The translations under genes were made by a program, and so were the position numbers. From Roseivivax isoporae LMG 25204 (GTDB taxonomy: Bacteria > Pseudomonadota > Alphaproteobacteria > Rhodobacterales > Rhodobacteraceae): a DNA stretch of 64,000 nt. Below the pieces are notes generated by a model that saw only the letters and a program-made list of their open reading frames with translations, ran no database searches and had not been told where the DNA came from. How positions within the stretch are numbered: the first letter of the stretch is position 1; every line of letters starts with the position of its first letter. The stretch lies in contig NZ_JAME01000014.1 in the NCBI RefSeq assembly GCF_000521865.1, positions 1 to 64,000 of the forward strand, in the 5' to 3' direction. Below, one piece after another: positions 31,378 to 61,770 of this stretch.

Positions 31378-31397
31378 ACAAGTATAAACAAGAATAA
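31378..31397. promoter_or_regulatory. Tandem 10-bp box, motA/31438 divergent promoter
   Basis: ACAAGTATAA is followed immediately by ACAAGAATAA. These two head-to-tail decamers are in a very AT-rich stretch between motA and the divergent unknown gene at 31438. The same decamer family (RCAAGWATAA) occurs at 44.7, 51.4 and 61.75 kb. Ten-base tandem repeats are the usual target of OmpR/PhoB-type regulators; FtcR is the local candidate. Confidence 0.6.
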
Positions 31398-31437
31398 ATA
31401 GAAAAAACGCAAAAAATAAAACGGGCTTGAGGCAGAA

Positions 31438-32469
31438 ATGGATCGTCTGGCTTATCTCTTCGAGGAGGCCGAGCTCGACGGCATGGTCGCGGACTGGCCG
31501 CCGGGCATGCGGCTTGCGCTGTGTCTTGAAAAAGGCGGCGCCATGCAGATCGTGCTCTACCGCTCCGACGAGGTCGACCGCGTGGCCGAACGGATCGCGA
31601 CCGCGACCGGCTGGAGCGCGGGCAGCTTCGCCGCGGTGCCGCAGCTCGGCGACCTGCCGCGCATGCGCATCCTCTATTCCGAGGCGCAGTGGTTCCTGCA
31701 CGTCGTCGCGGCGACCGACGGCCTGGGCGACATGGCGCGCGCCTATCTCGACCCGCCGAAGCCGCCGCAGCCGGCCCTGCCGCGCACCGTCCCGCTGGCC
31801 CGCGCACCGATCGCCTCGAGCGGGCTCGTTCCGCGCCGCGTGCTGGGGCAGCGCCGCGCCGGCGAGGCGCTGCCCGACGGCTACCGCCCCGCCCGCGAGA
31901 TGACCGGCCGCAAGGCCGAGTTCGTGGCCGGCCGGCTCTCGACCTCGGGCGCCCGCATCCGGCTGACCATCGAGCCTGACGCCGCGGACGAACGCACCCT
32001 GCCGGTGCGCGCGCGGCCGAACGGCTACCGCGACGACCTGCGCGCCTTCGTCCTCGACGTGGCGGCGCTCGACGGTTGGGTGCCGGGCACGGCCGCGATG
32101 ATCGACATGCCGATGGAGGATTTCCCGAAACCGCTCGCGGACCGCTTTGCCCGGCGCAGCCACGTGGCCGAGGTGACGGTCACGTCCGACGGCATCTTCG
32201 TGCAGCCGGGCGCGCCCGAGCTTGCCGGCACGCCCGGCTCCGAACCGGCGCGGCCGCCCCGGACCGGCCGGCGGGGCTGGTCGCTCCGCGCCGCGGCGCT
32301 GGCCGTCGTGGGACTCGCCGTCGTGTCGGGAACCGTGGTGACCGCGCTCACCCTGCGGGAAGACCCGCTGGCGGCGCGGCTCGCCTACAGCCCGGCCGAC
32401 GGCAACACTGCCCTGAACGTGCTCGAGGCCTTTGCCCTGTCGTCGAACGCAGACGGAGACGGACCATGA
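31438..32469 (+). CDS. Unknown protein with C-terminal membrane helix, first gene of modification operon
   Basis: No family is recognised for this 343-residue protein. The N-terminal 100 residues form a small mixed fold (MDRLAYLFEEAELDGMVADW). A Pro/Ala-rich linker follows, then a second domain rich in beta strands (about 160-260, GYRDDLRAFVLDVAALDGWVPG). One membrane helix lies at about 283-303 and a short tail follows. GAGGCAG precedes the ATG. It overlaps the downstream glycosyltransferase gene in an ATGA junction and is divergent from motA. It may be a PilZ-like or membrane-associated flagellar factor, but no diagnostic motif supports that. Confidence 0.75.
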   Translation: MDRLAYLFEEAELDGMVADWPPGMRLALCLEKGGAMQIVLYRSDEVDRVAERIATATGWSAGSFAAVPQLGDLPRMRILYSEAQWFLHVVAATDGLGDMARAYLDPPKPPQPALPRTVPLARAPIASSGLVPRRVLGQRRAGEALPDGYRPAREMTGRKAEFVAGRLSTSGARIRLTIEPDAADERTLPVRARPNGYRDDLRAFVLDVAALDGWVPGTAAMIDMPMEDFPKPLADRFARRSHVAEVTVTSDGIFVQPGAPELAGTPGSEPARPPRTGRRGWSLRAAALAVVGLAVVSGTVVTALTLREDPLAARLAYSPADGNTALNVLEAFALSSNADGDGP

Positions 32470-33761
32470 TCTGCGCCATCATCACGCCCGTCGGTCCGGG
32501 ACATGCCGAAAGCTTCGCGCGCATCTGCGCGCCCTCGGTGACGCGGGCGCGCGACTGGTCCATGGGGCCGTTCTCCGAGATCCGGCACCTGATGATGGAC
32601 GACACCGAGGGGCGGCATGGCCGGTCGCGGCGGCGCAACGACGCCCTGGCGCAGGCGCTCGCCGACGGAGTGGACTGGGTGTTCTTCCTCGATGCGGATG
32701 ACGTCATGACGCCCAACGCCTTCGCGGCCTTCGGGGGGGTGCTGGACGCGGAACCCGACCTCGACGCCGTCTGGGGCCTGATCTGCGAACAGGACCCGCA
32801 GGGCGAGCCGCAGCTGCGCGCGGGCCAGCCCGAACGGATCGACGACCGCGCGGGCTTCCTGTCGGTCGCGCCGTATCTCGCCGTCCAGATCGGCGCCTTC
32901 GTGCGCACCGGGGTCGCCGCCGCCATCGGTTTCGACACGGACATGGACACGGGCGAGGACTACAGGTTCTATCGCGCGCTCTGGAACGGACACCGCTGCG
33001 CAAAGCGGCCCGAAATCTTCTTCCTCAACCGCCGGGGTTCCCACAGCACCGGCCCGCGCGCCGCCACAGGGCGCGACTGGTCGGACAGCGTCACCGCGCA
33101 ATGGCGCGAGGAAGTGCAGCGCGCCTCGGTCCGCGTCACGGTCCGGCACGGCGGCAGCGACCTCGTCCTGCGCCTGACCGATCCCGCCGATCCCGATCAG
33201 GTGCCGCTGCTCAGGGGCGAGATGCCCATGGGCGCCTTCCTCGAGCGGATCGAGCCGCGCCTGCCGCTCGGCCTCTCGATGCTCGTTGCGGGCGCGGTGA
33301 GGGGACCCGTCGCGCTCTGGGCGTTGCGCCATCTCGGCGCGTCGCAGGTGCAACTTGCCGACGCGGACGCCGCGGCGCTCGATGCGCTGCGCGCCGAGGC
33401 TGACGCGAACGACGTCTCCGCGCGCCTGTCGCCCCGTCTCCTGTCCCTAGGCGCTGTCGCGCCCGCGGGCGATCCGGATGTCCGGCCCGAGGCGCCGGTC
33501 ATGCCCGACCGCGTCGACCTCCTGCACGTGGCGCAGGGCATCGCGACGCCCGAACATCTGGCCGGGCGCCTCGCCCCGGTGATCGCGCGGCACCGTCCCG
33601 CGATCCTCGCCGAGGTGCCGCAGGAGGGCATCCTGAGCTTTGCCCGCGGCTGGTGCCGAAAGGCCGGCTACGAGCTCGTCGACAGCGCCGAGGTGCGCGA
33701 CGGCATGATCTATTTCGCCCTGCCATCGGAGACCCACGATGCCCCAGACGAGAGCCGCTGA
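32466..33761 (+). CDS. Glycosyltransferase fused to FkbM-like methyltransferase-type domain
   Basis: This is a 431-residue protein. The N-terminal half (about 1-215) is a GT-A glycosyltransferase with RRRNDALAQALADGVDWVFFLDADD, where DAD is the metal/nucleotide-sugar motif. The C-terminal half has a Rossmann-like strand (LSMLVAGAVRGPVALWALRHLGASQVQLADAD) and VDLLHVAQGIATPEHLAGRLAPVIARHRPAILAEV, which resembles FkbM-type methyltransferases with a degenerate SAM loop. The start is set by an ATGA overlap. It overlaps the next gene by 23 bp. Within a flagellar cluster the likely target is flagellin or another filament protein. Confidence 0.72.
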   Translation: MICAIITPVGPGHAESFARICAPSVTRARDWSMGPFSEIRHLMMDDTEGRHGRSRRRNDALAQALADGVDWVFFLDADDVMTPNAFAAFGGVLDAEPDLDAVWGLICEQDPQGEPQLRAGQPERIDDRAGFLSVAPYLAVQIGAFVRTGVAAAIGFDTDMDTGEDYRFYRALWNGHRCAKRPEIFFLNRRGSHSTGPRAATGRDWSDSVTAQWREEVQRASVRVTVRHGGSDLVLRLTDPADPDQVPLLRGEMPMGAFLERIEPRLPLGLSMLVAGAVRGPVALWALRHLGASQVQLADADAAALDALRAEADANDVSARLSPRLLSLGAVAPAGDPDVRPEAPVMPDRVDLLHVAQGIATPEHLAGRLAPVIARHRPAILAEVPQEGILSFARGWCRKAGYELVDSAEVRDGMIYFALPSETHDAPDESR

Positions 33762-35556
33762 GCGGCGCACTTCCGGCGCCGTCGACCACCGTGCCACCAC
33801 CGCCTACGCCGCGCTTGCGGCGAACGACCTGCCGCGCGCGGTGCGGCTCGCGCACGGGTTGACCCAGGCGCGGCCGGACCGCCCCGACGGCTGGCTCGTG
33901 CTCGGCGGCGCCGCGCTGGCGCGGAACGAGGCCTCGGCTGCGCTGCGCTTCTTCACCGAGGCCGCGCGCGTCGCCCCCGGGGACGCGCTTGCCCACGAGG
34001 GTCTGGCCAAGGCGCAGCTTCTGTCCGGTGATCCGGTGCGGTCGCTCGCGGCCGCAGAGGAGGCGCTGACGCGCGGCAGTTCCGATGTGGGCCTCGTGCG
34101 GATCTACATGGAACTCATGATGCTCTTCGGCTGGAGCGGCCGGATGGACGAGGCGGCGGGCGTCGCGATCCGCCGCAACCGCGACATCGTGCTGGTGCGG
34201 CTTCTCGCGAACGCGCTGCTCGGCGCCGACCGCCCGGCGGCGGCGGTCGAGTGGCTGAACCTGTCGTGGGAAATCGACCCGGCCGCGCCCGAGAGCGCCG
34301 ACATGCGGCTCCTGGCGCTCCTCCTGACCCACCAGTTCGACGCCGCGCTCGCCTTCCACGCGGAATGCCGCGACGCCGGCCGGGCCAGCGACTTCCAGGT
34401 GGGCTGCGCCATGCGTGCTCTGCGCGAGACCGGCCGCCACGGCGCGGCGCTCGCGCTCTTCGACGAGCATCCGTTCGAGGACCTGATGGCCTACAAGATC
34501 GCGGCCTCCGTCGCGGCCAACATCCACCAGGACCTCGGCGACGCCGCCCGCGCCGAGGCCGCCTACCGCGAGGCCATCACGCTGACGACGATGCCCGGGC
34601 CGGTGCCCAAGGCGTTCGGCGCGTTCCTCTTCCGGCAGCGGCGCCTCGCGGAGGGTCTGCCGTACTACGCGCGGCGGATCCCCGAATCCGGGCGCCGCGT
34701 GATCGCCGAGGCGAACGCCGCGCCCGAGAACCTCGCCGCGCGCGACCGTGTCTTCCTGTTCGGCGAACAGGGCATCGGCGACCAGCTGGCGCTCCTGACG
34801 CTGCTCCGGGACACGCCGCTCGACCCCGCGCGGCAGGAACTGTTCCTCGTCACCGACGAGCGCTTCGCGGCGGTGCTCGAGGGCTCGCCGCTCGGCCTGA
34901 CCGTGCTGCCCGAAGCACGCGTTACCCGCATGCTCGGTGCGATCGACGGCCGCGAGATCGTCTACCTTGGCGATCTCGTGCGCTACCTCGCCCCCGAGGC
35001 ACGGCGTCCCGCGCCGATCCTGCGCCCGGATCCGGGCCGGGTCGAGGGCATCCGCCGGCGATATCTTGCCGAAGCGCCGAACGGACGAATCTTTGGTGTT
35101 GCATGGTCCACCGGCAACCCGATCGGCCATCTGCGCAACCTCCCGCTCGAGCGGGTGCTGGCGCCGATCCCCGCCGGATCGCTGGTGGTCGACCTGCAAT
35201 ATGGCGACCATGCGGCCGAGATCGCGGCGGCCCGCGCGGCCCGGCCCGACCTCGCCTTCGTGACTGATCCCGAAATCGACCAGATGCACGATCTTGCGGG
35301 TTTTGCAGCGCAGATTGCCGCGCTGGACACGGTGGTAAGCATCGACAACACCACTGTCCATGTCTGCGGTGCGCTCGGGCATCCCGATACCCACGTGCTG
35401 CTGCCGACCGGGTCGGAATGCATGTGGTACTGGGGCGCGGAGGGCACCCGCGATCCGTGGTACGGCGCCCTGACCCTGCACCGGCAGCCGCGCTTCGGCG
35501 ACTGGGACGCGGCGCTCGCGTCGGTTGCCGCCGCGCTGGCGGGGACGGCGGCGTGA
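33739..35556 (+). CDS. TPR protein with GT9/OGT-like glycosyltransferase domain
   Basis: This 605-residue protein has about six tetratricopeptide-like repeats in its N-terminal half (for example GWLVLGGAALARNEASAALRFFTEAARVAPGDALAHEGLA). Its C-terminal domain (about 330-600) is like heptosyltransferase/O-GlcNAc-transferase: DRVFLFGEQGIGDQLALLTLL, GVAWSTGNPIGH, and AALDTVVSIDNTTVHVCGALG with LLPTGSECMWYWG. Such TPR-GT proteins glycosylate proteins or surface sugars. GGAGACC precedes the ATG. It ends the three-gene operon opposite motA. Confidence 0.82.
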   Translation: MPQTRAAERRTSGAVDHRATTAYAALAANDLPRAVRLAHGLTQARPDRPDGWLVLGGAALARNEASAALRFFTEAARVAPGDALAHEGLAKAQLLSGDPVRSLAAAEEALTRGSSDVGLVRIYMELMMLFGWSGRMDEAAGVAIRRNRDIVLVRLLANALLGADRPAAAVEWLNLSWEIDPAAPESADMRLLALLLTHQFDAALAFHAECRDAGRASDFQVGCAMRALRETGRHGAALALFDEHPFEDLMAYKIAASVAANIHQDLGDAARAEAAYREAITLTTMPGPVPKAFGAFLFRQRRLAEGLPYYARRIPESGRRVIAEANAAPENLAARDRVFLFGEQGIGDQLALLTLLRDTPLDPARQELFLVTDERFAAVLEGSPLGLTVLPEARVTRMLGAIDGREIVYLGDLVRYLAPEARRPAPILRPDPGRVEGIRRRYLAEAPNGRIFGVAWSTGNPIGHLRNLPLERVLAPIPAGSLVVDLQYGDHAAEIAAARAARPDLAFVTDPEIDQMHDLAGFAAQIAALDTVVSIDNTTVHVCGALGHPDTHVLLPTGSECMWYWGAEGTRDPWYGALTLHRQPRFGDWDAALASVAAALAGTAA

Positions 35557-35931
35557 GCGGCGACATTCCGCGTAGGTCCGTTGGCGCCATCGGCCAAACG
35601 CCGCCTTACCTCAAAATCGTGCAGACTTTGACTTATTCTTAAACAGCTATCCGTATATTGTTTGCAAAGACTGACCTCAGGCCAAGGATAGGATCGGCAG
35701 GCAAAGGTATCGCTTACGTGAGTTCCGGAACTTCGGCGCCGCGCGGATGTTCAAGAAGGAGTGGAAACGCTGTTTCTTGCCCGTCTTGTGAAGGCCGGCG
35801 TTCGGGCAATGTGCGTGGTCGGTTCCGGAACTTCCGCGGTGCGCAGAACGCAATCCGCCGGCCAAGAGGTGACCGGTCTGCAGGGCCCCGTGTGGAGCAC
35901 GGGCGCTGCGGGATCGCAAGAAGAGGTTGAA
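35557..35931. other. 375-bp leader upstream of the MucR-like gene
   Basis: The first half is AT-rich and contains TTATTCTTAA (35633-35642), a partial match on the minus strand to the flagellar decamer. The 13-mer GTTCCGGAACTTC occurs at 35722-35734 and again at 35822-35834, exactly 100 bp apart; the first is part of the palindrome AGTTCCGGAACT. Open frames here are short and not protein-like. The region probably carries the mucR-like gene's promoter and regulatory sites. Confidence 0.6.
35722..35834. repeat. Two copies of GTTCCGGAACTTC, 100 bp apart
   Basis: The copies at 35722-35734 and 35822-35834 share 13 identical bases, and a looser GC-rich similarity continues downstream of both. Each has the 10-bp palindrome GTTCCGGAAC. 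They may be operator sites that loop, or a remnant of a local duplication. Confidence 0.6.
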
Positions 35932-36393
35932 ATGACCACAAACGACAAGAACCGGGATTTCATCGCGTCCATCGTGGCGGCCTATGCCGCGCGTCCGGAT
36001 GCCAAGCCCGACGACATCGTGGACCTCGCGCGCAAGCTGGAACGCGAATTCGGCTCCGCCGGAGATCCCGCGCCTGCCGAGGCGCCCGAGGCGCGGCCGG
36101 CCACGGATGTGCGGCCGGCGCTTCCCCTCGACCAGGCGCTGACCCGCGACAAGGTCTTCTGCCTGTGCTGCGGCAAGGGGTTCAAGATGCTGAAGCGTCA
36201 CCTCGGGTCCGAGCACGGCCTGACGGAGGCGCAGTACCGCCGCATGTTCGGCTTGTCCGACGACACGCCGCTGGTCGCGCCCAGCTATTCCGAACGCAAG
36301 GCCGAGTACGCGCGCCGCGCGGGCCTCGGCAAGCACGAGCGGACGCAGGCGCAGACCCGCGACGCCGACCAGGACGTGCAGCTGCCGTCCTGA
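35932..36393 (+). CDS. MucR/Ros-type zinc-finger regulator
   Basis: This 153-residue protein has the MucR/Ros zinc finger Cys77-x2-Cys80-x9-His90-x4-His95 (CLCCGKGFKMLKRHLGSEHG), followed by LTEAQYRRMFGLSDDTPLVAPSYSERK, the family's conserved C-terminal block. A linker rich in Pro/Ala separates it from an N-terminal helical oligomerisation region. MucR proteins bind AT-rich DNA and repress or activate motility, exopolysaccharide and cell-cycle genes in alphaproteobacteria. AAGAGG precedes the ATG. It lies between the modification operon and motB, so it likely regulates this cluster and its own AT-rich leader. Confidence 0.9.
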   Translation: MTTNDKNRDFIASIVAAYAARPDAKPDDIVDLARKLEREFGSAGDPAPAEAPEARPATDVRPALPLDQALTRDKVFCLCCGKGFKMLKRHLGSEHGLTEAQYRRMFGLSDDTPLVAPSYSERKAEYARRAGLGKHERTQAQTRDADQDVQLPS

Positions 36394-36433
36394 TCCGACC
36401 CCGGCCGCCTGAGCACAGCACGGAGCCACAGAG

Positions 36434-37423: not shown

Positions 37424-37468
37424 CGAAGAACGCCTCGCAACCCCCTGAAATGTGATCCATTTGCCACG

Positions 37469-37488
37469 CCGCAACCTCTCCGTTGCGG
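37469..37488 (+). terminator. Hairpin after motB
   Basis: CCGCAAC/GTTGCGG with a 6-nt loop lies 46 bp after the motB stop codon. A short TTATTTT follows about 20 bp later. It is probably the end of the mucR-motB unit. Confidence 0.55.
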
Positions 37489-37561
37489 GGCCCGGCGAAC
37501 GAGCCGATTATTTTGCGCCGTCGTGTAAAGCGTTTTAAAACAATAACTTAAATGGTGAATC

Positions 37562-38407: not shown

Positions 38408-38482
38408 CCATAGTTTTCTTTGTTCGGAATTTGGTCTGTGTTTCTCTGTCCTTACAAAACAAAAAAGTTTGGGGCAGGAACC

Positions 38483-39199
38483 ATGTTCACCACGTTCGGC
38501 GCCGCGCTGCGGCAGCCGCTTCTCGACCATGAATCCGAACGGGACGCCATCCGCCGCTGGCAGACGGCACGGGACCGTGCCGCGCTCGAGATCCTGTTGC
38601 GATCGCACGCGCGACAGGTCTGGTCCCTCGCGCGGCGCTGGACTGACAATCCCGCGCATCTCGAGGATCTCGTGGCCGAAGGCATGATCGGCCTCATGCG
38701 GGCGGCGGGCCAGTTCGACCTCGACCGCGACGTCCGCTTCGCCACCTACGCCAAGTGGTGCGTGCGCAGCGAACTGGCGGCCGCGCGTGCCCGGCTTGCC
38801 GGAGTGGGCGAGGCCTCGGCGGGCGACGCCGCCGGCATGCGGGACGTGCCGCTTCCGCACGTTCAGGGCCAGCTTGCCCTCGACACCGCGTCCGAGGACG
38901 GCCTGTCCGCCCTCGACCGGCTGCCGAGCGAAGCGCTGTCGCCGGAAGAGGAGGTGCTGCAGCGCTCGAGCGAACAGGCGTGGCGGCAGGTGCTCGACGC
39001 GGCACTGTCCGAACTCGACGACATGGAAGCCGAGATCGTCCAGCGGCGCCGCCTTCAGGTGGTGCCTGAGCCGCTCGCCGACATGGCCCGCGACCTCGGG
39101 CTTACCGTCGTGCGCCTGCGCCAGATCGAGACCCGCGCGTTGAACCGGCTGCGGCACCTGCTGATGGCGCGCGGCTTCTGCATGTCGTTGCTGCATTGA
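38483..39199 (+). CDS. RpoH-like sigma factor in the flagellar cluster
   Basis: This is a 238-residue sigma-70-family factor. Region 2 reads LLRSHARQVWSLARRW, then LEDLVAEGMIGLMRAAGQFDLDRDVRFATYAKWCVRSEL, close to the RpoH pattern. Region 4 reads LDDMEAEIVQRRRLQ and LADMARDLGLTVVRLRQIETRALNRLRHLL, also RpoH-like. It is about 60 residues shorter than RpoH (near 298), mostly between regions 2 and 4. GGGGCAGGAA precedes the ATG. It overlaps fliK (TTGA). No FliA is seen, so this may be the cluster's own sigma factor. Confidence 0.82.
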   Translation: MFTTFGAALRQPLLDHESERDAIRRWQTARDRAALEILLRSHARQVWSLARRWTDNPAHLEDLVAEGMIGLMRAAGQFDLDRDVRFATYAKWCVRSELAAARARLAGVGEASAGDAAGMRDVPLPHVQGQLALDTASEDGLSALDRLPSEALSPEEEVLQRSSEQAWRQVLDAALSELDDMEAEIVQRRRLQVVPEPLADMARDLGLTVVRLRQIETRALNRLRHLLMARGFCMSLLH

Positions 39200-43931: not shown

Positions 43932-44675
43932 TCAGGCCGGACGGCCCAGCCGCTGGATCGTGTCGCGCTGCAGGTCGCTCGCCGTCTGCGTGAGCTTGGT
44001 CGCCCGCTCGTAGGCCCGCTGGATCTCGATCATGCGGGTCATCTCGACCACCGGCTGCACGTTGCTGCCCTCGACCGCGCCCTGGATCATGCGCGTGGCC
44101 GCGGCCGGAACCGCCGCCGCCGCGCCGTCCGGCGCCACGAAGAGCCCGTTGCCGAGCCGTTCGAAGGATTGCAGGTCGGGAATGTCGAAGAGCCCGATGC
44201 GGCCCAGCATCGCGCCGTCGGCGCCGGTCATCGTGCCGTCCTCGGCGATCGACACCGTCGTTGCCAGTTCCCGCGCGAGCGCCACAGGCGCACCGCCCGC
44301 GTCGAGAATGCGGGCGCCGGCGAGCGTCACGAGGTTGCCCTGCGCGTCGACCGTGAGCCGCCCGTCGCGCCCGTAGGCGCGCTGGCCGTCCTCGGTCTCG
44401 TAGCCGAACCAGCCCGCCCCCTCGATCGCGAGGTCGAGCGGGTTGCCGCTGTGCTTGAGCGCGCCCTGCGCCGGGTCGACATAGGACCCGCCGTCGACCA
44501 CGTAGGACATGTCGCCCTCAGGCCCCGCCGCGGCGTTGTGCACGTAAGATTCGAAGGCGACACGCTCGCGCTTGAAGCCCGCCGTGTCGGCGTTCGCGAT
44601 GTTGTTCGCTGTGACATCCAGATCGCGCCGCAACGCGGCCGCGAGCGATATCGGTATGTAAGCCGAACTCTCCAT
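43932..44675 (-). CDS. flgF: Proximal rod protein FlgF
   Basis: This 247-residue rod protein has an N-terminal RRDLDVTANNIANADTAGFKRERVAF and a C-terminal VVEMTRMIEIQRAYERATKLTQTASDLQ. The size and the central AIEGAGWFGYETEDGQRAYGRDG fit FlgF. It is the first gene of the flgF-flgG-flgA-flgH-FliL-like operon, transcribed away from the AT-rich 44.7-kb region with the decamer boxes. Confidence 0.95.
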   Translation of the reverse strand: MESSAYIPISLAAALRRDLDVTANNIANADTAGFKRERVAFESYVHNAAAGPEGDMSYVVDGGSYVDPAQGALKHSGNPLDLAIEGAGWFGYETEDGQRAYGRDGRLTVDAQGNLVTLAGARILDAGGAPVALARELATTVSIAEDGTMTGADGAMLGRIGLFDIPDLQSFERLGNGLFVAPDGAAAAVPAAATRMIQGAVEGSNVQPVVEMTRMIEIQRAYERATKLTQTASDLQRDTIQRLGRPA

Positions 44676-44708
44676 GACTCGTCTGCTGCCTGCCTCTGGC
44701 TGCTTTTA

Positions 44709-44763
44709 TTATACTTGCTTATTTTGAATAAATGACCGATTTTTACGGTTACAGCAAGTATAG
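44709..44763. promoter_or_regulatory. Decamer boxes in the flgF/44774 divergent promoter
   Basis: On the minus strand TTCAAAATAA and GCAAGTATAA lie head to tail (44709-44728), facing flgF. On the plus strand GCAAGTATAG (44754-44763) lies 10 bp before the GTG at 44774. They match the RCAAGWATAA family seen at 31.4, 51.4 and 61.75 kb. Confidence 0.55.
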
Positions 44764-44773
44764 AGTTGATCTC

Positions 44774-46636
44774 GTGTCCGTCTATTCTTGGATCTTTCTC
44801 GCGCTGGCCGGTGGAACCGGGTCGTCGTTGTCGTTGCCGGGGGTGCCCCCGGCCGATCTCGCACGCCCTGAGACCCCGCTCGTCTGGCCCGGTGCTGCGC
44901 CCGACGACGTCGCCGCCCCCCCGGACGCGGCCGAGACGGTTCCGCCCACGCCGCCCGCGCCGCGGCGGCTGCCCGCGCTCGACCTTGGCCCGCTCGCCGA
45001 GGCTCCGTATCTCGAGACCCGCGCCGGCATGCTCGAGGCGCTGGCGGCGGCGCGCGAGTCGCACCGCGCCGGGGTCCTGATCGGCCTCGCTCGCCTGCAC
45101 CTCGCCCACGGCATGTTTCCCGAGGCGCGGTCGTTCCTGCGTCGCGCCGAGGCCGCGGGCGAGGCGTCGCCGGTCTCCGAGGTGCTGGACCTGGCGCTCC
45201 GGGCCTTCGATCCCCGGCGGCACGACCCGGTCCCGGCGGCGGACGCGGCTCCCGAGGGGCCGGACGTGCCGCTCTTTTCGGCGCTCCTTGCGATCGCCGA
45301 GGGGCCGACCGGCCCCATCCCGGACTTCGCCGAGGCCATCGACCGCATCGACGCGCTGCCCGTGGCGCTGCAGGCGGTGGCGCTGCCGCCGATGCTCGAC
45401 CACGCGGTCGGCGCCGAGCGCTGGTGGGAGGCGCGCAAGCTCGCCGGCCGGTTCGAGGAGATCGACGCGCTGCGCGAGGGCAGCGTCTACCACTACCAGC
45501 TCGGCCGCGTGGCGGAGGCCGGACGCGAGGACGTCGCGGCCTTCGACAGCTACCTGCGCGCGGCCACGGGGCGGGACGCCGCCGCGCAGCGCGCGCGGCT
45601 CGCCCTCGTCGCGCTCGGCCAGCGGACCGGCACGCTCGAGCCGGCCGAGGCGGCCGAAATGCTGCGCGCGGCGCGCAGGCTCTGGCAGGGCGGGCCGCTC
45701 GGGCGGCAGACGCTGGCCGCGCTCGCGGCCGCGGACCTCGCGGCGGGCGACCGGGTCTCGGCGCTCGTCGTGCTGCACGACATCCTGCGCGCCTATCCCG
45801 ACTCGCTCGACGCCCAGAAGGCGCGCGCCGAGGCCGAGGCGCTCCTGGCGCAGGTCTACGGCGAGGGGCTGTCGGGCATCATGCCGCTGCCGGTCTTCAT
45901 GCAGGCGCACCAGCGTCTGGCCGAAGATTTCCGCATGTCGGGCCTCTTCGATGCCTATTCCGAGTCCTATGCCGGGCTCCTGATGTCGCACGGCTTCACC
46001 GCCGCGGCGGCAGAGGAGCTGTCGGTGCTGCGCGACCACGTGGCGGTGGCGCAGGACCTGGGGCTCGGGAAGGCGGAGCCCGCGCGGGACGACCGGCTGC
46101 GGCTGGCCGAGGCCGAGGCGCTGATCGCCGGCGGGCGACCCGAGGAGGCGGTGCCGCTCCTGGCCGCGCCTCTCGGCGCCGAGAATCCCGAGCTGTCCGA
46201 GCGGCTCTTGCACCTGCGCGCAAGCGTCTTCGAGGCGTCGGGCGACACCGAGGCGCTTCTCGACGCGACGCCGCCCGAGCCGTCGGAGCGGTTCCTGCGG
46301 CTCAAGGCCGATGCGCTCTTCGCCCGCGAAAGCTGGTCCGAGGCCTACGAGACCTACCGCGCGCTCTGGGAGCGGGCGCCGGCCGCCATGGCGCCCTCGC
46401 GCGCCGCGCGCATGCTGCTTGCCGCCCATCGCAGCGGCAGCAGCGCCGACATCGGCGCGATCGTCGACGCGTTGCCGCAGCTGGCCGAGACGCCCCACTG
46501 GGCGGCCATCGCCCGCGAGCTCGCCGCCGACCGGCCTGAGCTCCTGCCACTGCGGCAGAGCATGGTCGAAGCCGAGATCGCCGACGCGCTGCGCACGGTC
46601 GAGCGCATCGACAGCCTGTCCGAGCCCGACGGCTGA
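44774..46636 (+). CDS. Exported TPR-type protein of the flagellar cluster, unknown
   Basis: This protein of about 620 residues starts with a signal-like segment (YSWIFLALAGG) and a Pro/Ala-rich stretch. About 450 residues of helix-turn-helix repeats of TPR/Sel1 style follow, such as AGVLIGLARLHLAHGMFPEARSFLRRAEAAGE. No specific family is recognised. An ATG at 44732 would extend it by 14 codons, but the promoter-like boxes lie inside that stretch, so the GTG at 44774 is preferred. It is divergent from flgF and followed by flgE, so a periplasmic structural or assembly role in the flagellum is inferred. Confidence 0.75.
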   Translation: MSVYSWIFLALAGGTGSSLSLPGVPPADLARPETPLVWPGAAPDDVAAPPDAAETVPPTPPAPRRLPALDLGPLAEAPYLETRAGMLEALAAARESHRAGVLIGLARLHLAHGMFPEARSFLRRAEAAGEASPVSEVLDLALRAFDPRRHDPVPAADAAPEGPDVPLFSALLAIAEGPTGPIPDFAEAIDRIDALPVALQAVALPPMLDHAVGAERWWEARKLAGRFEEIDALREGSVYHYQLGRVAEAGREDVAAFDSYLRAATGRDAAAQRARLALVALGQRTGTLEPAEAAEMLRAARRLWQGGPLGRQTLAALAAADLAAGDRVSALVVLHDILRAYPDSLDAQKARAEAEALLAQVYGEGLSGIMPLPVFMQAHQRLAEDFRMSGLFDAYSESYAGLLMSHGFTAAAAEELSVLRDHVAVAQDLGLGKAEPARDDRLRLAEAEALIAGGRPEEAVPLLAAPLGAENPELSERLLHLRASVFEASGDTEALLDATPPEPSERFLRLKADALFARESWSEAYETYRALWERAPAAMAPSRAARMLLAAHRSGSSADIGAIVDALPQLAETPHWAAIARELAADRPELLPLRQSMVEAEIADALRTVERIDSLSEPDG

Positions 46637-50594: not shown

Positions 50595-51305
50595 TCACTC
50601 CGCCGCCGTCGCCTGCACCGGTTGCGGCGCGGTGAGCTTGTAGCCCCTCCGGTGCACCGTCTCGATGTAGACGTGGCCCGACGCCGCCGCCGCGGACAGC
50701 TTCTTCCGGATCTTGCAGATGTAGACGTCGATCACCTTGTCGAAGGGTTGGTCCTCGGACAGGCCGTAGACGGCGTCGTAGAGCACCTGCTTCGACACCA
50801 CCCGCGTCGCGTTCAGCGCCAGGTGGCGCAGGATCGCGTGCTCGCGCCGCGACAGGTGCACCGCCACGCCGCAGACGTCGGGATTGCGGCCGTCGAAGTA
50901 GACGGTGACCTCGCCCACGGTGGTGCTTTCGGCGGCGTGACCGCCGGCGCGTCGCAGGATCGAGTTGATGCGCGACCGCATCTCCACAGCCTTGATCGGC
51001 AACACCACGTCGTCGTCAGCGCCGGCATCGAGCGAGTCGGCCGTGGCGCGCGCGTTGCGCAGGTCGCGCATCACCAGGATCGGACCGTGCAGCTCCGCGC
51101 GCCTGAGGTTACGGATGTAGTCGAGCGTCTCCGGCGTGTCCGCCAGCAGGAATGCCGCCCCCTCGGGGCAGGCCACCCGCAGCGTTTCGGGCGGGCGGTC
51201 GAGGAAGCGGGCATCCGCGGGCACGGCGACGATGTCGGCCCGCGCAAGCTCGTCGGCCAGCCCCCGGTGCCGCGCGTCGCGCGGTTCGTAGAGATAGATG
51301 TTCAT
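50595..51305 (-). CDS. ftcR: FtcR-like flagellar response regulator
   Basis: This 236-residue OmpR-type regulator has an N-terminal receiver-like domain (1-115) and a C-terminal winged helix (about 135-225) with VHLSRREHAILRHLALNATRVVSKQVLYDAVYG and YICKIRKKLSAAAASGHVYIETVHRRGYKL. The receiver is atypical: after the first strand there is only Glu7 instead of an acidic pair, while an Asp near 55 and the Lys in LPIKAVE are kept. FtcR controls flagellar genes in Brucella and relatives. It is divergent from flgI across an AT-rich region rich in ACAAGA motifs. Confidence 0.88.
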   Translation of the reverse strand: MNIYLYEPRDARHRGLADELARADIVAVPADARFLDRPPETLRVACPEGAAFLLADTPETLDYIRNLRRAELHGPILVMRDLRNARATADSLDAGADDDVVLPIKAVEMRSRINSILRRAGGHAAESTTVGEVTVYFDGRNPDVCGVAVHLSRREHAILRHLALNATRVVSKQVLYDAVYGLSEDQPFDKVIDVYICKIRKKLSAAAASGHVYIETVHRRGYKLTAPQPVQATAAE

Positions 51306-51386: not shown

Positions 51387-51460
51387 ATAAGAATAGACAA
51401 GAATAAAAATGGCAAGAATTGTTTTTTGTTCTGTCATTTCTTGTCCATATGTGGTCTTGT
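51387..51460. promoter_or_regulatory. Decamer boxes in the ftcR/flgI divergent promoter
   Basis: ATAAGAATAG and ACAAGAATAA lie head to tail at 51387-51406. GGCAAGAATT (51411-51420) and inverted copies CATTTCTTGT (51435-51444) and a looser one ending at 51460 follow. This is the densest cluster of the RCAAGWATAA family in the window and sits directly upstream of ftcR, suggesting autoregulation. Confidence 0.6.
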
Positions 51461-51493: not shown

Positions 51494-52612
51494 ATGGCGC
51501 GCTGGAAATTCGGCGCGCGGGCCGTCTGGGCCGTCCTCGCGCTGTGTGCGGGGCTGGTCGCGGAAGGCGCCGTCGCGCAGGTGCGGATCAAGGACATCGC
51601 CACCTTCGAAGGGGTGCGCGAGAACCAGCTCGTGGGATACGGGCTCGTGGTCGGCCTCAACGGCACGGGCGACAGCCTGCGCAACAGCCCGTTCACCGAG
51701 AAGAGCATCGAGGGCATGCTGGAACGCCTGGGTGTCGGCAACCTGTCGGACGACAACATCCGCACGCAGAACACCGCCGCGGTGATGGTGACGGCGATGC
51801 TGCCGCCCTTCGCGCGCCGGGGATCGACCATCGACGTGGTCGTGTCGTCGCTCGGCGATGCGAGTTCGCTCCGGGGCGGGACGCTGATCGTCACGCCGCT
51901 GTCCGGCGCGGACGGCGAGGTCTACGCCGTGGCTCAGGGCCCGATCGCGGTCGCGGGCTACGCCGCGCAGGGCCTCAACGCCTCGATCGTCGAGGGCGTG
52001 CCCACGGTGGCCCGGATCGAGAACGGCGCGACGGTCGAGAACGAGATCGGCTTCGAGCTTGATTCGCTGCGCTCGATCCGGATCGCGTTGCGCGATCCCG
52101 ACTTCACAACAGCGGTGCGCGTGGCCGACGCGATCAACCGCGCGCTTGGCGGCAATACCGCCCGCGCGCTCGACCCTTCGACGGTCGAGGTCGAGCCATA
52201 CGGCAAGACCGACCTCATGGGCGCGATGGCCGCGATCGAGCGGCTCGAGGTCGAACCCGACGTGCGTGCCAAGGTGGTCATCGACGCGCGGTCCGGCACC
52301 ATCGTCATGGGCGGCAACGTCCGCATCGACGAGGTGGCGGTCAGCCAGGGCGGCCTCACCGTCATGGTGCGCGAGGAGATCCAGGTCAGCCAGCCCGAAC
52401 CGATCTCGATCGGTGAGACGGTCGTGGTGCCGCAGACCACGGTGGAGGTCACCGAACAGCCGGCACGATTCGCCATTCTCGACGGCGGCGTGAGCCTGCA
52501 GCGGCTGGTGGACGGGCTGAACGCCATCGGCGTCGGCGCGACCGAGACGATCTCGATCCTGCAGGCGATCAAGGCGGCGGGCGCGCTGCACGCCGACATG
52601 GAAATCATCTGA
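51494..52612 (+). CDS. flgI: Flagellar P-ring protein FlgI
   Basis: This 372-residue protein has a signal peptide ending GAVAQ at about residue 28. Classical FlgI blocks follow: VRIKDIATFEGVRENQLVGYGLVVGLNGTGD, TAVMVTAMLPPFARRGSTIDVVVSSLGDA and LVDGLNAIGVGATETISILQAIKAAGALHA. It forms the periplasmic P ring. The ATG at 51494 is chosen over a start 25 codons upstream because GAGGCAGAG precedes it and the signal peptide begins there. It is the first gene of flgI-flgJ-FlgN-like. Confidence 0.96.
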   Translation: MARWKFGARAVWAVLALCAGLVAEGAVAQVRIKDIATFEGVRENQLVGYGLVVGLNGTGDSLRNSPFTEKSIEGMLERLGVGNLSDDNIRTQNTAAVMVTAMLPPFARRGSTIDVVVSSLGDASSLRGGTLIVTPLSGADGEVYAVAQGPIAVAGYAAQGLNASIVEGVPTVARIENGATVENEIGFELDSLRSIRIALRDPDFTTAVRVADAINRALGGNTARALDPSTVEVEPYGKTDLMGAMAAIERLEVEPDVRAKVVIDARSGTIVMGGNVRIDEVAVSQGGLTVMVREEIQVSQPEPISIGETVVVPQTTVEVTEQPARFAILDGGVSLQRLVDGLNAIGVGATETISILQAIKAAGALHADMEII

Positions 52613-53334: not shown

Positions 53335-53414
53335 CGACACGTGGACCTGACAAAGAAGGTCTGCAGGCCGTCAGAAGGACAGCCAAGAAACAGGAAAGTA
53401 CAGGAGCAGAAACC

Positions 53415-54803: not shown

Positions 54804-54807
54804 TCCG

Positions 54808-56084: not shown

Positions 56085-56103
56085 ACCCGGACAGGAGATT
56101 CCC

Positions 56104-56835: not shown

Positions 56836-56841
56836 GGCACC

Positions 56842-56875
56842 GCGCGCGGCACCGGGGCTGCCCGGACCCGCGCGC
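56842..56875. terminator. Bidirectional hairpin between the sulfotransferase and fliG
   Basis: Outer arms GCGCGCGG and CCGCGCGC (56842-56849 and 56868-56875) enclose an inner hairpin CCGGG/CCCGG (56852-56856 and 56861-56865). It lies in the 51-bp gap between convergent genes and probably ends both transcripts. Confidence 0.7.
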
Positions 56876-56886
56876 AGGCCGGGCCC

Positions 56887-57951: not shown

Positions 57952-57976
57952 CGCTCTCGCTCCCTCTGCGTTGCGT

Positions 57977-58798
57977 TCATCCGCCGCCCGCGAGCGGCAG
58001 ATAGCTTTCCATCAGGCTGCCCGCGAGCATGTACCAACCGTCGATCAGCACGAAGAAGATCACCTTGAACGGCAGCGAGATCAGGACGGGGGGAAGCATC
58101 ATCATGCCCGCGCTCATCAGGATCGAGGCCACGATCAGGTCGATCGCCACGAAGGGCAGGTAGATCAGGAAACCGATGGCGAAGGCGCGCCGCAGCTCCG
58201 AGATCATGAAGGCCGGGACCAGCGACCGCCAGCTCGCCTCATCGGCGGTCGCGGCGGGCGGCTCGTTCGCCTCGGGCGTCGCGCCCTCGGACCGCGCCGC
58301 GATGTCCTCGAACAGCGCCAGGTCCTTCGGCCGCGTGTTGGCGAACATGAAGGTCTTGAACGGTGCCCCCATGCGCTCGATCGCCTGCCGCTCGGTGATC
58401 GTGTTCTCGAGCAGCGGCTCGAGGCCGTCCTCCCACGCGTCGACGAGGACCGGCTGCATGACGAAGAACGTCATGAAGAGCGCCATCGCCGACAGCACCA
58501 TGTTGGGTGGCGTCTGGTTGAGCCCGAGCGCCGAGCGCAGGATCGAGAACACGATGACGAAGCGCGTGAAGCTCGTCATCACGACAAGGAGCCCCGGCGC
58601 GATCGACAGCACCGTGAAGAGCGCCAGCAGCTGGACGATGCGGCCCGAGAGCTGCGCGTTCTCGTCCGATCCGGGCTGCGCGTCCGACAGCGCGTCGGAG
58701 AGCGCACCGAGAAAGCCGCCGGCCTCCTGTGCCGTGGCGGGCAGGGCCGCGAGCGCGAGGAGCGCCGCGGCGGAAAGGAGGGCGGCAGCCCGGCTCAT
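57977..58798 (-). CDS. fliP: Flagellar export gate protein FliP
   Basis: This 273-residue protein has a cleavable signal peptide (ALLALAALPATAQ) and four membrane helices with FliP signatures: LFTVLSIAPGLLVVMTSFTRFVIVFSILRSALG, LMTFFVMQPVL-type sequence and FAIGFLIYLPFVAIDLIVASILMSAGMMMLPP. It forms the core of the type III export gate with FliQ and FliR, which are not in the window. It starts 4 bp after fliN. Confidence 0.96.
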   Translation of the reverse strand: MSRAAALLSAAALLALAALPATAQEAGGFLGALSDALSDAQPGSDENAQLSGRIVQLLALFTVLSIAPGLLVVMTSFTRFVIVFSILRSALGLNQTPPNMVLSAMALFMTFFVMQPVLVDAWEDGLEPLLENTITERQAIERMGAPFKTFMFANTRPKDLALFEDIAARSEGATPEANEPPAATADEASWRSLVPAFMISELRRAFAIGFLIYLPFVAIDLIVASILMSAGMMMLPPVLISLPFKVIFFVLIDGWYMLAGSLMESYLPLAGGG

Positions 58799-58802
58799 GC
58801 GC

Positions 58803-59258
58803 TCAGAATTCGCTCACGTGGTCGCGCACGATCTCGGTCAGGGACACGCCGATGCGGTCGCCCGCGAGCTTGACCAGTTCCCCGCGCGCCACGAGGCGGT
58901 CGTTGACCACCAGCTCCACCGGCTCCCCGATCCGCTGGTCGAGCTCGATCACCGATCCGCGCGTCAGCTTCAGCAGCGTCGAGATCGGCATGCGGCAATC
59001 GCCCAGCACCACCTTGACCTCGAGATCGACGTTCAGCATCGCCTGGATGCTGCGGCCCGCCACGCCGTCGCCCTCGGGCTTCGCAGTGGTGGTGACCGAC
59101 TGGCTCTCGTCGAATTCCGGGATCGTCGCGCCGAAATCCTGGTCGCCGGTGGCATCGTCCGCGGCAGCGGGCGCCTCGGCCACGCCGACGCCGGCGGATG
59201 CCTCGCGGGGCTCCTCTGCGGGCTTGCCGCGCGGGCTCGTCTTCCTGTCGTCACTCAT
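58803..59258 (-). CDS. fliN: Flagellar motor switch protein FliN
   Basis: This is a 151-residue protein. The acidic N-terminal 75 residues look disordered. The C-terminal SpoA domain reads LNVDLEVKVVLGDCRMPISTLLKLTRGSVIELDQRIGEPVELVVNDRLVARGELVKLAGDRIGVSLTEIV, the FliN signature. It builds the C ring with FliG and FliM. It overlaps the FliH-like gene by 8 bp. Confidence 0.95.
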   Translation of the reverse strand: MSDDRKTSPRGKPAEEPREASAGVGVAEAPAAADDATGDQDFGATIPEFDESQSVTTTAKPEGDGVAGRSIQAMLNVDLEVKVVLGDCRMPISTLLKLTRGSVIELDQRIGEPVELVVNDRLVARGELVKLAGDRIGVSLTEIVRDHVSEF

Positions 59259-59919
59259 CGGCTATGCTCCGTCCCGGTGCCGGCCTGACGCCGGTCTCCT
59301 TCGCCTCGCGCAGCGTCGCGATCACGCGGTCGCAGAGCGACGCAAAGTGCGTTTCCATGAACCCGTTGTTCCATTCCACCCGGCCGTCGCCGGGCCCGAG
59401 CGTGTCGTCGCGGATGATCTCGATCCGCGCGTCGAGCCCGAGCGCCTCGGCCTCCGCCTCGATCCCGGGGCCAAGCCGCTCGGCGCTGTCGGAGGACAGG
59501 CGCACGCGCACGCGGCCCGCCCCGAGCGTGAGCTTGAGCGCCGCCAGCACCTCGGTCCGGAGGCGCCCGGGTCCGAGCCTGCCCAGGATTTCCGGCGCGA
59601 ACTTCTCGCAGAGCGCAAAGGCGAAGTCGGCGGCGTCGGCCTCGAGCTGTGCGCGGTGCAGGTCGGTCGCCGCGACGAGGTCCTGCATGCCGGCGGCCAG
59701 CGTGCCGAGCGCCGAGAGCCTCAGGCGCTGCATCTCGGCGTGGGCTTCGGCCATCGCGATGCGGTGTCCCTCGACGCGCCCGTCCTCGAACCCTTCGCGA
59801 CGCGCGGCCTCGATGCGGCCGAGAATCTCGTCCTCGGCCGCGTCCTCGGCGGCGATGCCCACGCCGCCGCGCTCGATCTCGATCTCCCGGTCGAAGTCCC
59901 GGTCAAAGACGAAGCGCAT
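59251..59919 (-). CDS. fliH: FliH-like flagellar export regulator
   Basis: This 222-residue helical protein has an N-terminal acidic stretch, a central Ala/Glu-rich coiled coil (GFEDGRVEGHRIAMAEAHAEMQRLRLSALG) and a C-terminal domain with LGAGRVRVRLSSDSAERLGPGIEAEAEALG and VEWNNGFMETHFASL. This is the FliH/YscL layout, although the sequence is weakly conserved. FliH regulates the FliI ATPase. It starts 3 bp after fliF and overlaps fliN. Confidence 0.8.
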   Translation of the reverse strand: MRFVFDRDFDREIEIERGGVGIAAEDAAEDEILGRIEAARREGFEDGRVEGHRIAMAEAHAEMQRLRLSALGTLAAGMQDLVAATDLHRAQLEADAADFAFALCEKFAPEILGRLGPGRLRTEVLAALKLTLGAGRVRVRLSSDSAERLGPGIEAEAEALGLDARIEIIRDDTLGPGDGRVEWNNGFMETHFASLCDRVIATLREAKETGVRPAPGRSIADE

Positions 59920-59922
59920 GGA

Positions 59923-61635
59923 TCAGGCCCCCTCGGCCAGCCAGTGGCGCAGCACCCGGATCGACTCGTCGGGTTCGGCGTCCACCAGTTCCCCCACCGA
60001 CTGGACGCGGCGGCGGCGCACGCCCCCGCGGACCGACGCGAGGGACACGAGGTCGTCGGGCGCGTCGTCGTCGATGATGCCGTCGAGGGCGGGCTCGATG
60101 CGCGTCACGCGCCCGTCGTCGCCGGTGATCATGCGCCGGCCGGGATTGGCCGGGATTTGCGGCCGCGCCACGTCGGTGCCGACCTGCTGCGGCGCGGCCT
60201 CGCCCTTCGGCAGGGCCGCCGCGTCGGCGTCCGGTGCGGGCGCCGGCGGCGCGTCGAGCGCGCGGCGCAGCGCGGGTCGCACCGCGAAGACGAGGATCGC
60301 CACCACGATGGCGAGCGCCAGCACGCCGCGCAGGATCGACATCATGTTCCGCGCGAGAAGGTCGCCCAGCAGGCTGCCCTGCGCGAGGCCGGTATCCTCC
60401 TCGAAGGTCATGAACTGCAGCGATTCCACCGACACCGTGTCGCCGCGCTCGGCATCGAAGCCGATGGCGGAGCGCACGAGCCGCTCGATGCGCTCGATCT
60501 CCTCCGGGGTGCGCTCGCGGTAGACGGCGGCGCCGTTCGGACCGGTCTCGTAGATGCCGTTGACCAGCACCGCGACCGACACGCGCTCCACGTCGCCCGG
60601 CTCGCGCACCGTCTCGGACAGGGTCGATCCGATCTCGTAGTTCACGATCTCGTCCGACTGGGTCGACCGCGAGGAGGACCGCGGCCCGTCCTCGGCCGCA
60701 TCGGCCAATTCGGGCGGCAGCTGGTTCGCGACGCCGACCTGGCCCGCGGCGGCCTCCGAGCCCTCGGTCGCCTCCTCCCGCGTCTCGGTCGAGCGGATCA
60801 CCTGCTGGTCGGGGTCGAAGCTTTCCTGCCGGATGACCTGCCGCTCGGTGCTGAGGTCCACGCGCGCCTGCACCCGCACGTTTGCGGCGCCCACGCGCGC
60901 GGCGAGGATCTCGGTCACGCTGCGCGACAGGCGCTCCTCCATGGCGGCCTGGTCGCTTGTCACCGCCGCCTCGCCGGGCAGGTCGCTGTCGCGCCCGAGG
61001 ATCGTCTCGCCGCTGGCCGACAGCACGGTGACGGCGCCGGGAGACATGTCGGGCACGGCCGAGGCCACGAGCGCGCGGATCGCCAGCGCCTGCCGCCGGC
61101 TGATCGCGTAGCCGGCGCGCGACCGCACGATGACCGACGCGGTGGCCTCGGGACGGGTGCGCGAGAAGGCCTCGCGTTCGGGAATGACGAGGTGAACGCG
61201 CGCGGCCTCGATCCCGTCGATGGTGCGGACCGAGCGCGACAGCTCGCCCTCGAGCGCGCGGAGCCGGTTCACCCGCTGCATGAAGGTGTTCATGCCAAGC
61301 CCGCTTGCGTCGTCGAACAGCTCCCAGCCGGGCGTGCCCTGCGAGGGCAGACCCTGGTCGGCGAGCGTCATGCGGGCCCGGGCGATGTCGGCCTCGGGCA
61401 CGCTGACCACCGATCCTGCGCGGTCGAGCTCGACGCGGAAGCCCGCCTGCTCCAACGTGCTGACGATGCGGCTCGCCGATGCCGGGTCGAGGTCGCCGTA
61501 GAGCGGCCGGAAGGACGGTGTCATCACCGTGCCGAGCCCGAGCACCAGGAGGAGCACGAGACCGACGCCTGTCGCACCAAGGGCGATCAGTCGCCCGCGG
61601 CCGAGCGCCATGAGATTCTGAGTGAGCACGTTCAC
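59923..61635 (-). CDS. fliF: Flagellar MS-ring protein FliF
   Basis: This protein of about 570 residues has an N-terminal membrane helix (GATGVGLVLLLVLGLGTV) and the YscJ/FliF domain (FRPLYGDLDPASASRIVSTLEQAGFRVEL). MNTFMQRVNRLRALEGELSRSV and PDMSPGAVTVLSASGETI follow, then a second helix (GVLALAIVVAILVFAVRPALRR). The C-terminal FliG-binding tail reads ESIRVLRHWLAEG. The GTG at 61635 with AGGCAGAG upstream is used; a GTG 10 codons earlier (61665) is possible. It heads fliF-fliH-fliN-fliP-fliG. Confidence 0.95.
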   Translation of the reverse strand: MNVLTQNLMALGRGRLIALGATGVGLVLLLVLGLGTVMTPSFRPLYGDLDPASASRIVSTLEQAGFRVELDRAGSVVSVPEADIARARMTLADQGLPSQGTPGWELFDDASGLGMNTFMQRVNRLRALEGELSRSVRTIDGIEAARVHLVIPEREAFSRTRPEATASVIVRSRAGYAISRRQALAIRALVASAVPDMSPGAVTVLSASGETILGRDSDLPGEAAVTSDQAAMEERLSRSVTEILAARVGAANVRVQARVDLSTERQVIRQESFDPDQQVIRSTETREEATEGSEAAAGQVGVANQLPPELADAAEDGPRSSSRSTQSDEIVNYEIGSTLSETVREPGDVERVSVAVLVNGIYETGPNGAAVYRERTPEEIERIERLVRSAIGFDAERGDTVSVESLQFMTFEEDTGLAQGSLLGDLLARNMMSILRGVLALAIVVAILVFAVRPALRRALDAPPAPAPDADAAALPKGEAAPQQVGTDVARPQIPANPGRRMITGDDGRVTRIEPALDGIIDDDAPDDLVSLASVRGGVRRRRVQSVGELVDAEPDESIRVLRHWLAEGA

Positions 61636-61722
61636 AGCTGCTCTGCCTGTTTCTGCCTCGTGCACGTTGTATGCCGGTGAATTTTTCTTATCCGGCCGTG
61701 CTTATCCATGATCGTGACCTTT

Positions 61723-61770
61723 TTATTCTTGTGCGTCAATTGTAAATTTGCCAAGATTAGACAAGAACAA
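61723..61770. promoter_or_regulatory. Decamer boxes in the fliF/fliL divergent promoter
   Basis: CCAAGATTAG and ACAAGAACAA lie head to tail at 61751-61770, facing fliL. TTATTCTTGT (61723-61732), the exact complement of ACAAGAATAA, faces fliF. These match the decamer family at 31.4, 44.7 and 51.4 kb. Confidence 0.6.

Follow-up and report, generated by a model that had tools for sequence, protein, structure and literature searches.

The window analysed here, a stretch of 64,000 nucleotides from Roseivivax isoporae LMG 25204 (contig NZ_JAME01000014.1, positions 1 to 64,000), holds a flagellar gene cluster whose divergent operons are separated by gaps containing short boxes with the core CAAGNATA. 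Comparison with Pfam and NCBIfam models identified motA, motB, a sigma-70 gene, fliK, flgD, flgH, flgA, flgG, flgF, flgE, flgK and flgL, together with an OmpR-type gene (ftcR), flgI, flagellin, flaF, flbT, a DUF1217 gene, fliG, fliP, fliN, fliF, fliL and fliM. By sequence kinship and gene order the cluster belongs to the fla2 type of the Rhodobacterales: its FlgI is 78.5% identical to that of the Marinovum algicola DG898 pMaD5 reference, and the two share their gene order, in which fliK is preceded by a sigma-70 gene and flgL is separated from flgI by a response-regulator gene. Clusters of this type are described as often plasmid-borne and horizontally transferred (PMC12363192). The name ftcR comes from an earlier prediction made on this DNA (the original prediction), and its product, P0001, is better called FtcR-like. 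The genes flanking the four divergent gaps, and the regulatory genes of the cluster, are the following, where ORF denotes an open reading frame.

30434..31303 (-), motA, left of gap 1
31438..32469 (+), ORF343, conserved hypothetical, right of gap 1
35932..36393 (+), MucR-like gene for P0002, with a Ros/MucR-type Cys2His2 zinc finger, upstream of motB
38480..39199 (+), sigma-70 family factor, nearest models RpoH-like, putative start (ORF from 38420)
43932..44675 (-), flgF, left of gap 2, with flgG, flgA and flgH next on the same strand
44732..46636 (+), TPR ORF, right of gap 2, putative start, followed by flgE, flgK and flgL
50595..51305 (-), ftcR-like gene for the OmpR-type regulator P0001, with Trans_reg_C
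51494..52612 (+), flgI, right of gap 3
59923..61665 (-), fliF, left of gap 4
61800..62348 (+), fliL, right of gap 4, followed by fliM

The boxes of the window, whose coordinates come from one scan (the counts upstream of genes given further below come from a bounds-checked recount), are as follows.

31379..31398 (+), tandem boxes CAAGTATAAA / CAAGAATAAA, motA/ORF343 divergent gap (31304-31437)
35632..35641 (-), relaxed box, and 35683..35692 (+), box CAAGGATAGG, the two boxes (together 35632..35692) in the gap before the MucR-like gene
38445..38454 (-), relaxed box upstream of the sigma gene
44708..44717 (-), box CAAGTATAAT, flgF/TPR-ORF gap
44755..44764 (+), box CAAGTATAGA, flgF/TPR-ORF gap
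44781..44790 (-), box CAAGAATAGA, at or within the 5' end of the TPR ORF
51388..51407 (+), tandem boxes TAAGAATAGA / CAAGAATAAA, ftcR/flgI gap, the first beginning TAAG
51413..51422 (+), relaxed third box CAAGAATTGT, ftcR/flgI gap
61722..61731 (-), box CAAGAATAAA, fliF/fliL gap
61752..61771 (+), relaxed tandem boxes CAAGATTAGA / CAAGAACAAA, fliF/fliL gap

The original prediction had described a shared 10-mer, RCAAGWATAA, between the divergent flagellar operons, and this motif is real: with at most one mismatch the window contains seven matches, all inside the four gaps, compared with a mean of 0.64 and a maximum of 3 in 100 dinucleotide shuffles. The 4.9-Mb genome has six exact matches, five in the four flagellar gaps and one inside an unrelated ORF (L006); the reversed control pattern gives five matches genome-wide, so that the excess is local rather than genome-wide. 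The decamer has CAAGNATA plus a following R as its core, with looser bases on the outside. The contrast with GC-rich surroundings was also correctly seen (gaps of GC 0.42-0.47 in a 70% GC window), and the motif is not equally common in unrelated AT-rich sequence: 15 tiles of 150 bp with GC under 0.50 (2,250 bases), drawn from 400 kb of the same genome plus the remaining window, hold one CAAGNATA, three relaxed boxes and no RCAAGWATAA, whereas the 596 bases of the four gaps hold seven, 11 and five, respectively. The arrangement is less regular than had been thought. A tandem 10-bp pair is present in three of the four gaps, but the predicted exact head-to-tail repetition of RCAAGWATAA occurs only at 31378-31397; at 44709-44763 the two boxes lie on opposite strands, 47 bp apart, and the third box of that gap, at 44781-44790, had been overlooked. 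The start codon of the TPR ORF is ambiguous within 44732-44815, and it is at or within this 5' end that the third box falls.

The looser pattern CAAGNATARA has 12 matches genome-wide, six of them in the gaps of the window. Of the six outside the cluster, two (C16 and C20) are inside ORFs, two (C4 and C24) are in gaps before ORFs and two (C19 and C26) have an ambiguous setting; none precedes a recognised motility gene, the neighbours having been judged by eye only. A further box, CAAGGATAGT, lies outside the window at about position 70,596 of the contig (C14; L125:6597), at the 5' end of an ORF that diverges from flgB. We read this ORF as fliI on the basis of gene order in relatives, and the flgB/fliI gap may be the regulon's fifth.

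The search upstream of homologous clusters that the original prediction had proposed as a check found the motif there as well. Related fla2 clusters were collected from same-genus and same-family genomes, plus 17 related FtcR loci, and gave 74 divergent gaps (26 ftcR/flgI, 23 flgF, 13 fliF and 12 motA), with L070, L072, L073, L074, L077 and L078 (shared contigs or near-duplicates) and G015 and G280 (no cluster) left out of the count. CAAGNATA occurs 86 times in these gaps, with at least one copy in 55 of the 74, against a mean of 1.8 and a maximum of 6 in 100 shuffles, a comparison that overstates the significance because related sequences are not independent. The gaps have diverged nonetheless, and the place and number of the boxes vary between them. 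With the window excluded, the top de novo 8-mer was CAAGAATA, found in 34 of 70 gaps where 0.68 were expected.

The boxes are also helically phased. The distances between 55 same-strand pairs were 10 bp (13 pairs), 20-22 bp (nine), 29-34 bp (22), 42 bp (three) and others (eight), giving R 0.68 at 10.5 bp, or R 0.60 for the 32 non-redundant pairs, levels not reached in any of 5000 uniform draws. Convergent pairs are phased as well (p 0.0008, non-redundant), and the divergent pairs, of which there are few, gave p 0.09 (non-redundant). That phased CAAGNATA boxes precede fla2 operons is, as a fact of the sequence, close to certain. Outside the cluster the tandem pattern is unspecific: allowing up to two mismatches it has matches in 51 of 345 family genomes, mostly single and scattered, and, with N positions left free and at most one mismatch, a scan of 61 genomes gave 14 matches, six of them in the fla2 clusters of G000, G005 and G008, the reversed control giving six. 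A literature search that drew partly on PMC9456535, PMC8639532, PMC8781033, PMC9779718, PMC8857273, PMC12363192, PMC12843797 and PMC13297338, in the portions of these sources that it covered, yielded no published account of the box motif or of a fla2 reader, and four spellings of the box, searched as whole words, returned only an unrelated match.

In order to see which operons carry the boxes, the 130 bp before 23 gene starts were surveyed in each cluster for strict and relaxed boxes. Strict boxes were frequent before motA (15/16 clusters), ORF343 (13/14), ftcR (23/29), flgI (27/34), fliF (21/22) and fliL (11/14), and less so before flgF (16/31), the sigma gene (5/14; relaxed 13/14), flgE (5/32; relaxed 18/32) and fliG (4/27). 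None was found over the same distance before flagellin (0/31), flaF (0/29), motB (0/19), flgD (0/21), flgK (0/32), flgL (0/32), flgH (0/30) or fliM (0/16); the 31 flagellin upstream regions have a mean GC of 0.50 and contain a single relaxed box. The fla1-type loci are at background, with 12 CAAGNATA and 16 copies of the reversed control in 20 loci, each covered for 16-20 kb, which perhaps does not take in every fla1 operon; four of the 20 come from genomes that also carry fla2. Boxes are also absent from two Azospirillaceae flagellar loci, one of which includes an FtcR relative in its cluster. One cis element that is common to the divergent operons, conserved, restricted to fla2 and helically phased makes co-regulation likely, and a shared regulon of the boxed operons is well supported. 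To this extent the original prediction that one regulator switches the divergent operons is supported; its identification of that regulator as FtcR is not, as set out below.

Two side observations concern these other loci. The second flagellar cluster of the R. isoporae genome (G000:C8:119571-120647, L127) has a FlgI 54% identical and shows no boxes in the 20 kb covered. The Azospirillaceae plasmids L151 and L152 carry a related flagellar cluster, box-less and with FlgI 57-61% identical, and the Azospirillaceae are a possible source lineage of fla2.

We propose that a single regulator, carried along with the fla2 cluster, uses the CAAGNATA boxes as its operators and would control the early operons of the cluster, namely motA, ORF343, flgF onward, the TPR ORF with flgE onward, flgI, fliF, fliL-fliM and, where present, ftcR and the sigma gene. 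The Ros/MucR-type protein encoded beside motB would bind several boxes on the same helical face, in either orientation, as a multimer, and so hold these promoters down. In the motA/ORF343 gap the second box follows TTGACA at a distance of 22 bp and would thus occupy the -10 position of the ORF343 promoter; TTGA stands at this distance before seven motA-gap boxes, where a bound protein would cover the -10 region, which suggests repression. The best tandem boxes are those of the ORF343 promoter, and since the MucR-like gene follows ORF343 downstream, it may limit its own expression.

This cluster-borne protein is the best candidate for the reader of the boxes, and we hold the assignment about as probable as its opposite. 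P0002 matches PF05443 (ROS_MUCR) at E 8.6e-31 with 107 bits, against a curated cut-off of 25.4, which places it in the Ros/MucR family, and it matches the Ros87 structure 2jsp at E 7.7e-16. Its zinc ligands follow the pattern C-X2-C-X9-H-X3/4-H (CLCCGKGFKMLKRHLGSEH), which is intact in 21 of 21 entries (20 loci, G209 being listed twice), ftcR-less clusters included. The gene was found in every fetched cluster that holds the motB region. Among the 345 family genomes it is present at E <= 2.2e-36 in 18, the same 18 that show a fla2 FlgI (17 at 67% identity or more; G171 at 70% and 62% over two pieces, split over two contigs), and the next-best match is at 8.2e-31 with 49% identity. Eleven genomes with a weaker FlgI were checked, nine at 41-52%, G171, which was counted as fla2, and G252, which was left outside the 18 (FlgI 61% over 146 residues, genome 75% complete, no MucR match at 1e-15). 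On a Loktanella plasmid the MucR-like gene is the sole annotated DNA-binding regulator within the cluster, and no MucR gene is listed for one annotated box-less Azospirillaceae locus, although such gene tables are incomplete. Two side features were noted at L148:3127-3789 and in the clusters G124, G304, G076, G169, G353 and G120: another response-regulator-like gene sits close to the MucR-like gene in some clusters, and seven clusters also contain a second, weaker MucR-like ORF.

Several observations weigh against this assignment. On co-occurrence alone, the MucR-like gene is indistinguishable from the remaining core genes of fla2. The boxes looked by eye like the arms of the Ros box, a candidate likeness that failed against a position weight matrix (PWM): shuffled arms reach the same score in 68% and 95% of cases, the matrix having been built from a preset pattern with its fixed columns partly so by construction. 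The gaps before 20 MucR paralogues outside fla2 (33-49% identity) hold 10 relaxed boxes in 6,000 bases, approximately the rate of the AT-rich tiles, and boxes are sparse before the fla2 mucR gene itself (29 relaxed and 10 strict in 7,600 bases for 19 genes, five of which have none). Published MucR proteins, in the portions of PMC9779718 and PMC8857273 that treat their binding, bind AT-rich DNA of little consensus, unlike the box. At least two of the outside CAAGNATARA matches sit in gaps before genes unlike motility genes. Finally, it is only from the position of the boxes and the habits of the family that we infer repression.

The reader could instead be another conserved fla2 protein, such as ORF229, ORF343 or one not yet recognised, or a host factor of the carriers, which we consider rather doubtful. 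ORF343 and ORF229 are found by tblastn in most covering clusters, those of five ftcR-less genomes included, and neither has a convincing Pfam or NCBIfam match; no DNA-binding domain was recognised in either, although their single-sequence AlphaFold models were too poor to judge by (mean pLDDT 40.8 and 35.8), and ORF343 has an apparent C-terminal membrane helix, as read from its sequence. That fla2 moves between hosts, often on plasmids, according to the relevant passages of PMC12363192, favours a reader borne by the cluster over a host factor.

In line with the original prediction, FtcR could be the reader and would activate all of these operons, in which case another regulator would have taken over in clusters without ftcR. 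In favour of this, 10-bp direct repeats suit OmpR-type sites, a strict box stands before ftcR in most clusters (see above), and FtcR homologues regulate flagella elsewhere, according to the literature sampled. The spacing, which had been taken as typical of OmpR/PhoB-type regulators, seems not to be specific to them: 13 of the 55 same-strand pairs are at 10 bp, many others are 20-34 bp apart, and boxes occupy either strand at various multiples of the helical turn. P0001 itself shows no receiver-domain match at E 0.001, and its response-regulator matches in NCBIfam are all below cut-off, the CtrA model being nearest.

Boxes and ftcR can be separated. FtcR is present in 13 of the 18 family genomes with a fla2 FlgI, and in at least 13 of the 345, in a survey that scored the best eight candidates per genome; the five ftcR-less genomes (G209, G202, G139, G294 and G014) were searched again with all candidates and showed no FtcR-like gene in the cluster and, elsewhere, only partial matches of 24-41% to other regulators, so that no substitute FtcR was found in them. 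A sixth ftcR-less cluster, on a Loktanella salsilacus plasmid, has no response regulator or sigma gene annotated and no FtcR match by tblastn; in the tree it is almost indistinguishable from G014. Every examined motA, flgF and fliF gap of the ftcR-less clusters retains at least one relaxed box, and the density is similar: relaxed boxes per 150 bp upstream of motA, flgF and fliF were 2.08, 2.20 and 2.55 with FtcR (n = 12, 15 and 11) and 2.80, 2.00 and 3.17 without it (n = 5, 6 and 6, G014 and Loktanella being near copies). The exception is the flgI gap of these two near copies, which has lost its boxes, a point in favour of FtcR. In a tree of FlgI, FlgG, FlgE, FlgK and FlgF from 40 loci, built by a quick method and with G340 and L064 filling only 20% of the columns, the FtcR label needs six changes, at least five of them forced by well-supported branches, and one may concern the Azospirillum row; provided that the changes are losses and not gains, the boxes would have outlived ftcR several times. 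The box-less Azospirillaceae locus with its own FtcR relative points the same way. The Brucella FtcR motif from ChIP-seq, TGTGGGCA (reported in PMC9456535), differs from the box, although it is the motif of the Brucella protein and may not be that of P0001. The presence of boxes is thus independent of FtcR, which speaks against an OmpR/FtcR regulon, and FtcR was rejected as the main hypothesis; that it is the reader we regard as unlikely.

FtcR may nevertheless have a place below the boxes. The sigma gene (38480-39199) and ftcR (50595-51305) are both gone from the same six fla2 clusters: of the clusters that span both positions, 14 carry FtcR together with the sigma factor, one (G170) carries FtcR only and six carry neither (Fisher p 0.00013, or 0.0004 with G014 and Loktanella merged). 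Their absence from the same clusters suggests a functional pair. The two probably form a single tier that is itself controlled through the boxes, and this tier would be a dispensable addition below the proposed MucR switch.

A core-promoter role for the box seems very improbable, whether as the -10 recognised by the cluster's sigma factor or as a TATNCT -10 on the reverse strand. TTGA lies exactly 22 bp before eight of 90 boxes, which would put AAGNAT at the -10 position, and TATNCTTG resembles a -10 hexamer; however, seven of the eight are in motA gaps, the other boxes are without such a -35, and on the reverse strand none stands at a constant distance (no single distance is shared by more than three of 98). 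Several boxes per gap, on both strands, do not suit the idea, nor does the retention of boxes in all six ftcR-less clusters, from which the sigma gene is absent, and it was rejected on the counts of box to -35 distance.

Control of these promoters by CtrA, with the boxes as degenerate CtrA sites, is more improbable still. CtrA-like response regulators seem to be present throughout (partial matches of 36-39% to FtcR in the searched genomes), the nearest NCBIfam model to FtcR is that of CtrA, CtrA governs flagella in other Rhodobacterales, as far as the sources drawn on go, and the gaps hold more TTAA-N7-TTAA than chance would give (14 strand counts, where shuffles average 1.0). This pattern is confined to five of the 74 gaps, so that the gaps do not behave as a CtrA regulon, the box contains no TTAA and the fla1 loci are without boxes; the reading was rejected. 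A compositional accident of AT-rich gaps can practically be dismissed, since, although the gaps are indeed AT-rich islands, the shuffles, the AT-rich tiles of the same genome, the flagellin upstream regions and the conservation in relatives all refute it.

Returning to the cluster-borne zinc-finger protein, its proposed action both resembles and departs from known systems. It shares with the Ros/MucR silencers the domain, the Cys2His2 finger and the FK.LKRHL stretch of Ros87, but here a cluster-borne paralogue would read a defined CAAGNATA box with no Ros-box match, rather than low-consensus AT-rich DNA; a further likeness is that the sites of MucR1 are described, in the pertinent part of PMC8857273, as containing T runs with a periodicity of 10-11 bp. 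Like the FtcR/Rem regulon of the Rhizobiales, the cluster contains an OmpR-type regulator gene, although the boxes here are independent of it and, as noted, unlike the published motif. In Brucella, as stated in part of PMC9779718, MucR represses the flagellar genes via ftcR. The CtrA-controlled divergent promoters of Rhodobacter sphaeroides (PMC6180460, in part) likewise belong to a second flagellar system in the Rhodobacterales, and differ in that TTAA-N7-TTAA is here so rare. The passages on fla2 in PMC12363192 give no operator motif or reader, and neither MucR nor FtcR occurs in its main text; how a single Rhodobacterales cell coordinates the expression of its two flagellar clusters is posed there as a question with first indications only.

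Taken as a whole, the view that fla2 is a transferable cluster with its own Ros/MucR protein reading defined, phased CAAGNATA arrays, and with an FtcR-sigma tier that is removable and was jointly lost several times, is offered tentatively, with somewhat less than even confidence. If true, a family known for global silencing of low specificity would here be used cluster-specifically, on operator arrays; should the zinc-finger protein prove to be the reader, it would show the Ros/MucR family capable of specific regulation. The list of boxes, the natural clusters with and without ftcR and the one candidate reader make fla2 control directly testable, and the analysis corrects the attractive assignment to FtcR to which guilt by association leads.

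A minor observation concerns flagellin, the upstream region of which lacks strict boxes. A stem-loop with an AGAA(N) loop (53370-53380, + strand) lies 38-46 nt before the flagellin start (gene 53415) and was seen in 31 of the 33 clusters; for five alternative loop tetramers the counts are 1, 4, 5, 7 and 19 of the 33, the last being GAAA, which overlaps AGAAA. The stem shows paired changes (GTC/GAC, GCC/GGC, GAC/GTC and GGA/TCC), and the element is possibly the mRNA target of FlbT, which is encoded nearby.

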